A stretch of DNA of 64,000 nucleotides from the NCBI RefSeq assembly GCF_002741035.1, contig NZ_CP016808.1:5566501-5630500 (forward strand), written 5' to 3'. Each line of letters begins with the position of its first letter. The first letter of the stretch is position 1. The notes under the pieces are model-generated. The model did not search any database. It worked only from the letters and a program-made list of their open reading frames with translations, and was not told where the DNA came from. Both the position numbers and the translations under genes were made by a program. This document shows, one piece after another, positions 11,313 to 14,853 of this stretch. Source of the DNA: Paenibacillus sp. BIHB 4019 (GTDB lineage Bacteria; Bacillota; Bacilli; Paenibacillales; Paenibacillaceae).

Positions 11313-11981
11313 ATGACAACGGTAGTTGCGGTTTACACCGGACAAGGGCTTGCTGATCCGCTGAAGGCTGTGTTTCAGGAGGTGCTGCCGGGCGTGCGGC
11401 TGGTCAACATTATTGATGACAGCCTGATCGGCGATGTCGTCAAGGCGGGGCATATTCCAGCGGGAGTGAGCAAGCGGCTGACGCAATATTTTCAGCATGG
11501 GGAGGAGCTGGGGGCGGATATTATTCTGAATACCTGCTCCTCAGTTGGCGAAGTGGCTGATGCTGTGCGGGGACAGCTTGGCATTCCGCTCGTTAAAATC
11601 GATGAGGCGATGACGGCCAAGGCGGCGGCCGAATACGACGCAATTGCGGTGCTGGCCACGCTGCCTTCAACTCTGGAACCGACGATGCGATTTTTGGCAA
11701 AGCAGGCGGAGGCCATTGGGAAAGAGGTCTCCATCTTGAATGGTCTCGCAGTCGGAGCCTTCGATGCGCTGGTAGGAGGAAACCCGGCGGAGCATGACCG
11801 CATTTTGCTGGAGACGGCGCTTGCGGTTAGCGATAAAGCGGATGCCATCGTATTGGCCCAAGGATCAATGGCTCGGATGGAGGGAGCTATACGGGAGGCG
11901 ACAGGCAAGCCGGTGCTATCCAGCCCGCGGCTTGCTGCCGAGCAAATTAAAGAGATGCTGGCAGAGCGAGGGCTGCTTTAG
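11313..11981 (+). CDS. Asp/Glu/hydantoin racemase-like protein
   Basis: A 222-residue protein of the two-domain aspartate/glutamate racemase fold. Visible features are an N-terminal VAVYTGQGLADPLK strand-loop, the first active-site segment ILNTCSSVGE, and a C-terminal VLAQGSMARME segment. Two-base racemases carry a second catalytic cysteine in that C-terminal segment; here it is Gln/Gly/Ser. Loss of one of the two cysteines is known in relatives such as arylmalonate decarboxylase, so an isomerase, decarboxylase or hydrolase role is as likely as racemisation. The start ATG is 8 nt after GGGAGG; an in-frame TTG at 11289 lacks such a site. It directly precedes the RuBisCO-like gene, suggesting it acts on the same acid-sugar intermediate. 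Confidence 0.75.
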   Translation: MTTVVAVYTGQGLADPLKAVFQEVLPGVRLVNIIDDSLIGDVVKAGHIPAGVSKRLTQYFQHGEELGADIILNTCSSVGEVADAVRGQLGIPLVKIDEAMTAKAAAEYDAIAVLATLPSTLEPTMRFLAKQAEAIGKEVSILNGLAVGAFDALVGGNPAEHDRILLETALAVSDKADAIVLAQGSMARMEGAIREATGKPVLSSPRLAAEQIKEMLAERGLL

Positions 11982-12048
11982 CCGCAATGATTTTAGCAAT
12001 AACAGCTACAGCAAGGGACAAAGGCATATTTAGCGGGAGGGAAATAGC

Positions 12049-13308
12049 GTGGAACAAGAAAGAGTGACGGCTGTCTATTTGATAGAGACACCTTATACGC
12101 TGGAACGTGCTGCCGAGGTGATTGCGGGCGAGCAATCAACGGGCACCTTTACAGCGGTGCCAGGTGAGACGGATCAGCTGAAGGAGCGGCATGGGGCGCG
12201 AATTGAACAAATTGTCGAGCTTCCGCCTGTGCCTGCTCCGACGCTGCCGGGCTCCAAAACGCCGCTGGGTCATGACGGTCTTTATCGGCGCGGAGAGGTA
12301 ACGGTTTCCTTTCCGCTGCACAATTTTGGGCCGTCCATTCCGAATTTAATGTCTGCAATTGCCGGCAATTTGTTCGAGCTGCAGGAATTGTCCGGACTGA
12401 GGCTAGTCGATTTGGAGCTGCCGGAAGCATTCGCAGCAAGGTACCCCGGCCCGAAGTTTGGCATCGCGGGTACTCGTGAGCTAACCGGCGTGTATGACCG
12501 TCCGATTATGGGGACGATTGTCAAGCCGAGCATCGGGCTTCCCATGGCTGACCTCCAGCAGATGATTATGGACGTTTCGGCTGCGGGGCTTGATTTTATA
12601 AAGGATGATGAACTGAATGCTAATGGAACCTATGCTCCTCTTGCACAGCGGGTAAGTGCAGTCATGGATGCCGTCAACCGGGCGGCTGATGCAACAGGCA
12701 AAAAAATCATGTACGCCTTCAATATTACCGGTGATATCGATGAAATGGAGCGTGGGCATGAACTGGTCGTCAAGGCAGGCGGCAACTGTGTCATGGTCAG
12801 CATAATGAGCGTCGGATTGGCGGGGCTTGCCCACTTGAGCAAATACAGCGAGGTGCCGATTCACGGCCATCGCAATCAGTGGGGCATGATGACGCGCTGC
12901 CCGCTGCTGGGCTTCGCTTTTCCAGCTTATCAGAAGCTGTGCCGTCTGGCAGGAGCCGACCATCTGCATGTGAACGGTCTGGACAGCAAATTTTATGAAA
13001 GCAACAGCTCGGTTGTCAGCTCCATTCGCGCTTGTTTGAAGCCCATGTATGGCGGCTATGGGACGATGCCTGTCGTATCCTCGGCACAATGGGCAGGGAC
13101 TGCTCCGGCTACTTATGAAGCAACAGGGACGGTAGATGTGATGCATTTGGCTGGCGGCGGCATTTTGGCCCATCCGGGAGGGGCGGCGGCTGGCTTTGCA
13201 AGCATGAAGCAGGGCTGGGAAGCTGCTGTTCAAGGCATTCCGCTCGCGGAGTATGCAAGTCGGCATCCGGAGCTGCAGCAGGCTATAGCAAAATACGGAA
13301 AGGGCTGA
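12049..13308 (+). CDS. RuBisCO-like protein (form IV), acid-sugar pathway type
   Basis: A 419-residue large-subunit-type RuBisCO homologue. Active-site counterparts retained: K159 in TIVKPSIGL (RuBisCO K175), the carbamylation motif FIKDDE with K185/D187/E188 (K201/D203/E204), H274-R275 in IHGHR (H294-R295), H307 (H327) and K314 in LDSKF (loop-6 K334). The second lysine of the KPK motif is serine. The gene starts at GTG after GGGAGG and lies between a racemase-like protein and a DUF1537 kinase. In characterised D-apionate pathways a DUF1537 kinase makes 3-oxo-isoapionate 4-phosphate and RuBisCO-like proteins (OiaX/OiaT) decarboxylate or cleave it. That is the favoured role; MtnW of methionine salvage is unlikely because no mtn genes are nearby. 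Confidence 0.9.
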   Translation: MEQERVTAVYLIETPYTLERAAEVIAGEQSTGTFTAVPGETDQLKERHGARIEQIVELPPVPAPTLPGSKTPLGHDGLYRRGEVTVSFPLHNFGPSIPNLMSAIAGNLFELQELSGLRLVDLELPEAFAARYPGPKFGIAGTRELTGVYDRPIMGTIVKPSIGLPMADLQQMIMDVSAAGLDFIKDDELNANGTYAPLAQRVSAVMDAVNRAADATGKKIMYAFNITGDIDEMERGHELVVKAGGNCVMVSIMSVGLAGLAHLSKYSEVPIHGHRNQWGMMTRCPLLGFAFPAYQKLCRLAGADHLHVNGLDSKFYESNSSVVSSIRACLKPMYGGYGTMPVVSSAQWAGTAPATYEATGTVDVMHLAGGGILAHPGGAAAGFASMKQGWEAAVQGIPLAEYASRHPELQQAIAKYGKG

Positions 13309-13314
13309 GCGGGG

Positions 13315-14853
13315 ATGGACAGAGCGGGATTAACGCATAAGCCAAACGATTGTGACACTAGCTTCAGCGACAGCGGCGGAAAGATGCCATCCAGCGTAGG
13401 CACTATGGGGGACACCGGGCGGCGCCAGCAGGAGGCATGCTCGGATAGCTCCGGTGATCGGCTCCCGGCATCGCAGCGCCTGCTCAGCTACTATGGCGAC
13501 GATTTCACCGGTTCTACCGATGTGCTGGAAGCACTGTTCCGAGCGGGCCTGCGGGCAGCGTTATTTCTGGAGCCGCCAAGCGAGCAGCTGCTTGCTAGCA
13601 AATTTGCAGATTTAGAAGCCATTGGAGTAGCGGGCATTGGCCGCTCGCTGACGCCGGATGAGGCGGAGCGCGAGCTGCGTCCGGTACTGGAGCAGCTGCG
13701 AAAAATAGGGGCAGCCATTACGCATTACAAAATATGCTCGACATTCGATTCCTCCGCTGAAGTTGGCAGCATCGGCAAGGCAGCGGAAATTGGCCGCTCC
13801 GTGTTCGGTCCTGGCTATATTCCGATATTAGCGGGGGTTCCTTATTTAGGCCGCTATACGTTGTTCGGCAACCATTTTGCAGCGGCAGGCGGCGAGACGT
13901 ATCGGCTTGACCGCCATCCAACGATGTCGCGCCATCCGATTACGCCGATGGCGGAAGCGGATTTGCGCCAGCATTTGGCCCAGCAGACGGAGTTAAAGAC
14001 GGCGCTGATGGATATTTTGGCGCTGGAGGGAGACATGTTCGAAGTGGGCGAACGGCTCGCTAAACGGGTAGAACGCGAGCAGCCTGATCTCGTGCTGTTT
14101 GATGTGCTCGACGAAGCTAGGCTGGCAGCGGCTGGACAGCTGATTTGGGAGGAAGCCCAGCAGCGCGACGGCTTGTTTGCCATTGGCTCTTCTGGCGTGG
14201 AGTATGCGCTCGGGGCTTGCTGGCGCAAGCTTGGTTTGCTGCAGGAGCAGCCGGAAATTAGCGCTGCTTCTGCCACAGAAGTTGAACGTCTGCTCGTAGT
14301 GTCGGGAAGCTGCTCGCCAGTTACAGAGCAGCAAATCAAGGCAGCGCTGGCAGCAGGCTTTGCAGGCATTCGCGTTCCGGCAGAGGAGCTGCTGGACGGG
14401 AAGAAAGGCGCGGCTGCGAGACAGCGGCTGCTGAAAGAAGCTCGGGAGAAGCTGGCAGATGGGCGCAGCCTGCTGCTTTATTCAGCAGAAGGAGTGGACG
14501 ATCCAGGCATTCCGCGTTTCCGGGAAACGCTTGCTTCGCAGGGCTATGGGCCTGAGCAAAGCAGCCGCTTATTAGGCGCTTTGCTTGGAGCGCTGGCGCG
14601 GGAGCTGATTATCGACGAGCAGCTTACACGCATCGTCATCGCTGGCGGGGATACGTCTGGTTATGTTACGCGCGGCTTGGGTATCTATGCACTGGAATGC
14701 GTGGCTGCACTAACGCCGGGAGCGCCGTTATGCCGAGCTTTCTCGGAGGAGTCTTCACTGGATGGGCTGGAGCTGGTGCTGAAGGGTGGACAAATCGGCG
14801 AACGGGATTTTTTCGCACGGATGAAGCAAGGGAGGGCAGCATATGCCGAATGA
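13315..14853 (+). CDS. Four-carbon acid-sugar kinase family protein (DUF1537)
   Basis: ATP-dependent kinase of the OtnK/DtnK/OiaK family, 512 residues. The N-terminal substrate domain begins with [19 protein letters not shown] near residue 58. The C-terminal nucleotide domain contains [18 protein letters not shown] and [13 protein letters not shown] near the end. The ATG at 13315 follows the RuBisCO-like gene by 6 nt with only a weak site (GCGGGG), and about 55 non-conserved residues precede the domain, so a later start is possible. Its 3' end overlaps the beta-galactosidase start by 11 nt. Adjacency to a RuBisCO-like gene points to phosphorylation of 3-oxo-isoapionate or a similar branched acid sugar. 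Confidence 0.88.

Follow-up and report, generated by a model that had tools for sequence, protein, structure and literature searches.

The original work on the D-apiose pathway is said to be that of Carter et al. (2018), and the RuBisCO-like protein (RLP) of the D-hamamelose pathway was reportedly described by Kim et al. (2018). For the oxidative degradation of D-apiose, the reported gene set comprises apiose dehydrogenase, apionolactonase, ApnO, OiaK and OiaX (PMC11747546). In the L-threonate/tetronate route LtnD-OtnI-OtnK-OtnC, isomerisation to a 3-oxo acid is reported to precede OtnK (PMC12540250). The enzymatic dismantling of rhamnogalacturonan II (RG-II) is known in Bacteroides, where BT1003 is described as an aceric acid hydrolase (PMC5698469, PMC10850190) and the GH2 enzyme BT_0993 as a galactosidase acting on Gal-beta-1,2-aceric acid (PMC11739564); aceric acid itself is reported to be 3-C-carboxy-5-deoxy-L-xylose. 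In the literature searched, which left most subscription journals outside its coverage, no breakdown route for the freed aceric acid was found, nor, by title or abstract start, any description of a gene system of the make-up reported below.

We analysed a window of 64,000 nucleotides (G000:C1:5566501-5630500) inside the 7.25-Mb genome of the soil bacterium Paenibacillus sp. BIHB 4019. It holds an operon for a racemase-like protein (RACE), an RLP and a DUF1537 kinase, flanked by a GH127-fold hydrolase and a GH2 beta-galactosidase, with all genes of the block on the + strand. An initial annotation of this DNA had read the block as a variant route for apiose or apionate. From co-conservation, genomic context and predicted folds we infer a different substrate, and likewise all of the reactions: the chances seem to us about even that the operon encodes the catabolism of a C-branched sugar acid, most likely aceric acid, one of the rarest sugars of plants, from side chain B of RG-II. 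A broader proposal, for which we see a little less than an even chance, is that such an aceric-acid pathway extends across Bacillota, Bacteroidota, Chloroflexota, Acidobacteriota and others, with a repurposed Asp/Glu-racemase fold as isomerase, so that the apiose-type RLP module would take a second branched sugar redox-free.

The RLP, its kinase and RACE

The block of racemase-like, RLP and kinase genes named in the initial annotation proved real in family searches. RACE (222 amino acids; 11313..11981, +, with an in-frame ATG at 11313) matches PF01177 (7.7e-21), the RLP (419 amino acids; 12049..13308, +, GTG start) matches PF00016 (1.8e-66) and PF02788, and the kinase (13315..14853, +) matches PF07005 and PF17042. 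Because the conserved region of the kinase begins only after the first ~50 amino acids of its open reading frame (ORF), its true start may lie ~50 codons downstream. The nearest named relative of the RLP is a 98% identical protein of P. algorifonticola. Against the NCBIfam equivalog models, the RLP scored 464.7 bits with OiaX (NF042437; curated cut-off 700) and the kinase 504.1 bits with OiaK (NF042436; cut-off 700), both below the line. All eight of the other RLPs scored, including those of loci with an ApnO-type gene, also fell under the OiaX cut-off (409-510 bits), so that it cannot separate the locus types and says little about the substrate; the kinase of the ApnO-type locus L055 was likewise under the OiaK cut-off (539 bits). 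An identity as MtnW, the enolase of methionine salvage, was rejected: the RLP reached 176.6 and 211.6 bits against MtnW-model cut-offs of 513.6 and 409, and the true MtnW is another gene of the same genome, which passes both models (535 and 614 bits). By their sequences, the RLP and the kinase are OiaX/OiaK-like, as had been proposed, and not MtnW. The system is, judged from its gene content, of the OiaK/OiaX-like kind with a different feeder enzyme; the expectation of a variant route held in this sense, RACE standing in place of an ApnO-type gene.

The RLP belongs to the RuBisCO superfamily by its PF00016 match and by a K185-D-D-E motif that is invariant in 19 sequences. The suggestion that all key lysines are retained stood only in part. 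With the usual RuBisCO residue numbering and lysine roles, alignment to the solved RuBisCO 8dht places K159 and K185 (in KDDE) opposite the lysines called K175 and K201, but Ser161 stands opposite K177. K314 (motif SKF; GKF in 3nwr) we take, by motif, to be the loop-6 lysine, as the 8dht alignment is gapped there. K159 and K314, like K185, are invariant among the 19 sequences. We propose that the RLP would act on a phosphorylated branched beta-keto acid, either as a decarboxylase or as a transcarboxylase/hydrolase, and that the kinase would be the enzyme phosphorylating the terminal CH2OH of this acid.

The predicted fold of RACE (predicted local distance difference test, pLDDT, 95.9) found allantoin, glutamate, hydantoin and aspartate racemases as its top Foldseek matches, with probability 1.00, which together with PF01177 places it in the Asp/Glu racemase superfamily. 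Typical racemases of this superfamily have two catalytic Cys. In RACE, Cys75 (motif TCSS) is the sole conserved catalytic Cys, and Gln183 occupies what we presume, by the family motif, to be the second position; both residues are invariant in 37/37 aligned sequences. Databases name the group after amino-acid racemases, a role that is unlikely since one Cys position is replaced and the named neighbours are mostly carbohydrate genes. A single Cys is compatible with an isomerase, whereas a racemase would need two bases. We suggest that RACE may be a sugar-acid isomerase yielding a beta-keto acid, the weakest step of our proposal.

A sister group of racemases, 36-39% identical to RACE and with the same Cys/Gln positions, was found in Paenibacillaceae (L105, L107, L108, L110, L112) at loci that resemble sugar loci. 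The family search of these loci covered L105, one of the five, where the sister gene lies near an FGGY kinase gene and OtnK-like (262 bits, cut-off 350) and OtnC-like (116 bits, cut-off 250) genes. Among eight RACE-containing stretches, the ORF caller missed the gene in L106 and L109.

Partner genes in other genomes

The neighbourhood survey comprised 91 RLP rows, made up of 80 loci from named genomes (the best 80 of 558 relatives), ten plasmid loci from 366 records, and the window. Counts were made by tblastn, since ORF calling chose antisense ORFs in G+C-rich loci. The kinase was present in 86/91 rows, at a distance of 1.5 kb or less in 84. As third partner, 38 rows had RACE only, 26 an ApnO-type gene only, two had both and 25 neither. 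Here, ApnO-type stands for a PF16896 protein with a weak N-terminus like ketol-acid reductoisomerase (KARI), PF16896 being what we take as the marker of ApnO; for the ApnO-only row L082, the evidence is a match of 51 residues where a contig ends. The three genes of the block are co-conserved in other genomes, and neither of the two outcomes that the initial annotation had named as refuting it was found. In a quick tree of the RLPs from 64 rows, made without bootstrap and with 20/89 inner branches under support 80, the RACE/ApnO label switches at least 12 times. For nine of the 25 rows that lack both partners, the search was extended to the full genome or record. It found RACE at 280 bits or more in five (299-356 bits), the match in the L061 genome containing one stop. 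Weaker matches were those of a Croceibacterium plasmid (265 bits) and of the L035 genome (226 bits, which is sister-group level, with one stop); among these nine rows, none was found for the contig-end locus L014 or in a Streptomyces plasmid record.

Genomes were also searched starting from RACE. In Bacteroidota it occurred in 7/296 genomes, and in all seven the RLP lay 1.4-1.6 kb away, so that the association is more than chance. One of the seven was a centre chosen for its locus; in the other six loci, no stretch of 1 kb matches any survey locus at 95% identity. Over the 15.5-16 kb read in these six, RLP, kinase and RACE were together in all and a BT1003-type GH127 gene was present in three. 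RLPs at E <= 1e-90 were found in ten Bacteroidota genomes, seven with RACE (631-658 bits) and three of another lineage (305-308 bits). Among 197 Paenibacillaceae genomes, RACE (at least 280 bits) was present in 15, RLP in 18 and both in 14, the 280-bit line having been set after seeing the gap between 280.9 and 248.7 bits; without this line there are 30 RACE genomes, with RLP in 15. These 197 genomes are not independent of the survey because they include genomes of survey loci (for example, G016, G134 and G089 match L025, L024 and L027).

The sole Paenibacillaceae genome with RACE at this level and no RLP is that of L111 (G192:C1:5305500-5320500), where, at 5074-9958, GH127-like and RACE genes stand with a beta-keto acid cleavage enzyme (PF05853) and a different DUF1537 kinase. 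Since the PF05853 enzyme takes the RLP's place, the compound after RACE is suggested to be a beta-keto acid, and from its gene content L111 is possibly a natural replacement of the RLP step. The observation that no apionate oxidoisomerase is in view near the block could be extended to the whole genome of the window, in which a PF16896 search gave no match; as a control, 3/4 comparison genomes did match, and the fourth is a RACE-type Pedobacter.

Two further arrangements of these genes were seen. Of the four Paenibacillaceae genomes with an RLP only, three were read (L119-L121; G079 was left out) and represent a third locus type, in which RLP and kinase are accompanied by a zinc alcohol dehydrogenase and a class II aldolase-family protein, with no RACE or ApnO-type gene in the stretch read; L030, L033, L034, L037 and L038 are of the same type as L119, L120 and L121. 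In L023 (2954-5253), a protein weakly resembling L-fucose isomerase or sulfoquinovose isomerase and a transketolase half lie beside GH127-like, RLP and kinase genes with no RACE nearby, a set that recalls the non-oxidative apiose route.

Hydrolases, proposed reactions and rival readings

The hydrolase gene at 9505..11229 (+), whose product would set aceric acid free, had been called GH127-like, and it is the predicted fold, not the sequence, that would support this label. The protein gave no Pfam, NCBIfam or PDB sequence match (PDB at E <= 1), so that neither PF07944 nor similarity assigns it to GH127, while its model (pLDDT 84.9) returned GH127/GH146 enzymes at Foldseek ranks 1-21. E298-x-C300 and C396-C397 do not vary across 17 sequences, and we tentatively equate them with the Glu-x-Cys and Cys-Cys Zn-cysteine site of GH127 and its catalytic roles. 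Judged by eye, the protein seems to carry no signal sequence and for this reason may act intracellularly on imported fragments. On the other side of the block, the GH2 LacZ-type beta-galactosidase (14843..18100, +) matches PF02836/PF02929 and scores 925.5 bits with NCBIfam Bga2A (cut-off 999); its ORF start overlaps the end of the kinase ORF by 11 bases.

GH127-type genes were present in 27/38 RACE-only rows, in 0/26 ApnO-only rows, in 0/2 rows with both partners and in 6/25 with neither. The contrast between RACE-only and ApnO-only rows gives a Fisher p of 1.7e-9, which is not a fair probability because survey rows are related. The genes fall into three groups that are far apart in sequence and adjoin or neighbour RLP genes. 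Nineteen of the 27 RACE-only rows have the window-type group, five the BT1003-type group (L088, L089, L068, L058 and L049, to which L061, without RACE nearby, is added) and three a third group (L093, L048 and L060, plus L005 without RACE nearby); one of the six rows with neither partner, L014, has yet another kind of GH127. The distance to the RLP is mostly below 1 kb, and 4 to 8 kb in L049, L024, L050, L052 and L057. Similarity to BT_1003 was tested for two of the BT1003-type group, those that adjoin the RLP in L088 and L058. That of Pedobacter scored 846 bits to 5mqo, entitled 'Glycoside hydrolase BT_1003', against 379 bits to the next GH127, and that of a Chloroflexi metagenome-assembled genome (MAG) scored 775 against 407. 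The Chloroflexi locus has the order GH2 - GH127 (BT1003-type) - RLP - kinase - RACE, and both this order and the window's GH127-like ... GH2 arrangement fit aceric acid. Pectin genes are close in some loci of the RACE group, with GH28 and pectinesterase in L061 and pectinesterase in L010. The pectin or RG-II setting suggested in the initial annotation is likely.

In the pathway that we propose from these genes, the ABC importer would bring in an RG-II side-chain fragment, the GH2 enzyme would strip Gal from Gal-beta-1,2-aceric acid, and the GH127-fold enzyme would then free aceric acid. RACE would convert this aldose into the 2-ketose HOCH2-CO-C(OH)(COO-)-CHOH-CH3 by moving the carbonyl from C1 to C2. 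The product would be a beta-keto acid, the methyl homologue of 3-oxo-isoapionate, HOCH2-CO-C(OH)(COO-)-CH2OH, which lies two oxidations from the aldose in the apiose route. No oxidation would be needed, because aceric acid already bears a carboxylate (on C3); RACE would fill the place of ApnO in apiose loci, and a single cofactor-free isomerase would do away with the need for dehydrogenase, lactonase and oxidoisomerase, in keeping with the genes seen to differ between the locus types. The OiaK-like kinase would then phosphorylate the CH2OH end of the 2-ketose. The RLP may either decarboxylate the product in the manner of OiaX, giving 5-deoxypentulose 1-phosphate, or act by OiaT-like transcarboxylation and hydrolysis, giving 3-phosphoglycerate and lactate.

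Several points weigh against aceric acid. The reactions are proposed from gene content, and in the Asp/Glu racemase superfamily we know of no aldose-ketose isomerase. The block genes were not seen to include an aldolase for 5-deoxypentulose 1-phosphate; seven class II aldolase matches all lie elsewhere in the genome. The window hydrolase has no detectable sequence similarity to BT_1003, agreeing with it in fold and in the E-x-C/CC pattern, and Foldseek places arabinofuranosidases above BT_1003, which is the last of the 21. VIA-align Z is even slightly higher for sugar epimerases with the same (alpha/alpha)6 barrel than for GH127, so that the fold alone is no proof of the family. The third-group enzyme tested, that of L093, resembles GH146/GH127 arabinofuranosidases more closely than it does BT_1003. 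Eleven of the 38 RACE-only rows have no GH127 gene in the stretch read (some stretches being cut by contig ends), and these include the haloarchaea L004 and L087, for which a link to RG-II is hard to see. Two Bacteroidota loci, L061 and L068, carry a BT1003-type GH127 gene directly 5' of the RLP and show no kinase of this kind in the ~21 kb read. A kinship-aware paired test of GH127 with RACE was not significant (median p 0.0625; 8 pairs, starred branches), although GH127 went the same way in 5.2 pairs on average and never the opposite way. RACE and an ApnO-type gene occur together in the Acidobacteria L072 and L079, the sole two such rows of 91, which could handle both branched sugars or could mean that the two genes are not true alternatives. 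Finally, no RLP column cleanly distinguishes RACE-type from ApnO-type loci (best overlap 0.37), so that both could even share one compound. RLP-kinase modules were seen in a third haloarchaeon, L056, with an ApnO-type gene, and this one, like L004 and L087, is far from an obvious RG-II diet.

The two loci with both partners and the lack of a distinguishing RLP column also serve the reading of the initial annotation, a variant D-apiose/D-apionate pathway in which 3-oxo-isoapionate itself is the substrate of RLP and kinase, and RACE in some way does the work of the oxidoisomerase. In its favour too, OiaX and OiaK are the closest matches of the RLP and the kinase, at scores similar to those that RLPs of ApnO-type loci reach, and apiose is also a component of RG-II. 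We nevertheless consider it improbable and find apiose or apionate as the substrate unsupported. RACE and the ApnO-type gene are nearly exclusive, GH127 is missing from every ApnO-only row, and Gfo/Idh dehydrogenases are commoner there (14/26) than in RACE-only rows (7/38). The hydrolases tested in Pedobacter and Chloroflexi are nearest BT_1003, and the three apiosidase-family matches of the genome are all elsewhere. To our knowledge the Asp/Glu racemase superfamily has no redox cofactor, so that RACE could not perform the two oxidations of the apiose route. Putting aceric acid in place of apionate, within a system that is real and widely conserved among distant microbes, is a conclusion that we believe and doubt in equal measure. 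Another sugar acid, released by GH127 or derived from pectin and handled by the same logic of isomerisation or epimerisation, phosphorylation and RLP, is on the unlikely side. The L093 enzyme and the rows without a GH127 gene would suit it, and the GH127/GH146 enzymes characterised so far are reported to be almost all beta-L-arabinofuranosidases (PMC10850190); however, arabinose has no carboxylate and no need of an RLP, and BT1003-type enzymes directly adjoin the RLP in Bacteroidota and Chloroflexi loci.

The two remaining rivals keep the genes but change their roles. RACE might act later than the RLP, perhaps by epimerising the ketose phosphate left by decarboxylation, or be a decarboxylase like arylmalonate decarboxylase, with the feeder gene elsewhere. 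The superfamily includes this single-Cys decarboxylase, which was a structural match of RACE at Foldseek rank 26, and L023 offers a sugar-isomerase-like gene (109 bits to sulfoquinovose isomerase, cut-off 700). This is quite doubtful, as RACE occupies the place held by the feeder enzyme ApnO in the other locus type, and the sister racemase of L105 has OtnK/OtnC-like genes close by, a setting in which the kinase acts after an isomerase. That the RLP is an oxygenase forming 3-phosphoglycerate and glycolate, as in the D-hamamelose pathway of Ochrobactrum anthropi, seems hardly credible to us: a related RLP is reported to work in this way (cited in PMC8914248), but the genes of the block showed no set of hamamelose dehydrogenase and lactonase, and RACE is present in the Anaerolineae MAG L049, where a need for oxygen would be odd.

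Neighbouring genes and comparison with known systems

Upstream of the hydrolase gene, the window begins with a GH78 alpha-L-rhamnosidase (43..2490, +; PF17389, 4.3e-119), whose start is possibly outside the window; like the GH2 gene, it had been named in the initial annotation and is confirmed by its Pfam match. It is followed by a sensor histidine kinase (2673..4433, +), an ORF named from its sequence and having same-order relatives in L015, L016 and L018, and by the sugar ABC importer (4540..7750, +). The binding protein of the latter (4540-5895) and its first permease (5970-6932) match PF01547 and PF00528, and the second permease (6929-7750) was assigned solely from its place and from relatives in the same three loci. 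A response regulator with an AraC-type DNA-binding domain (7789..9483, +; PF00072 and PF12833) completes the series. At 53630-56278 the window also encodes an 882-amino-acid protein of WG repeats with a C-terminal DUF3298, which has no relation to the RLP block. Elsewhere in the genome, at G000:C1:1764926-1774044 (L125, L129), a class II aldolase match lies ~8 kb from an apiosidase-family (PF13204) match, a possible apiose locus.

If the aceric-acid proposal is true, it would provide a function for one RLP lineage, for a racemase-fold group and for a GH127-fold group that is unmatched by any Pfam model. It would also mean that the RLP-kinase module changes substrate by a swap of its feeder enzyme, as often as the label switches on the RLP tree.

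Among known systems, the Asp/Glu/hydantoin racemases share with RACE the fold and the first catalytic Cys, and differ from it in the second Cys position, where RACE has Gln. The D-hamamelose pathway, as reported, also uses an RLP late in a branched-sugar acid route, with different partner genes. In the L-threonate route, as in the pathway proposed here, an isomerase is reported to make a 3-oxo acid that a DUF1537 kinase phosphorylates before a decarboxylase acts; unlike the RLP, its 3-OtnC is a decarboxylase of the aldolase-II family, and OtnI is not known to belong to the racemase superfamily. The RG-II system of B. thetaiotaomicron contains, in BT_1003 (GH127) and BT_0993 (GH2), the same two hydrolase activities that we propose around the RLP operon. 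Its likeness is closest in Pedobacter and Chloroflexi, whose hydrolases are nearest to BT_1003, whereas the window hydrolase is related to it in fold only and seemingly has no signal sequence. With the oxidative D-apiose pathway, finally, the locus shares an RLP and a DUF1537 kinase side by side and the logic of a branched beta-keto acid; in contrast to that pathway, the window's genome has no ApnO-type enzyme and has RACE and a GH127-type hydrolase instead.

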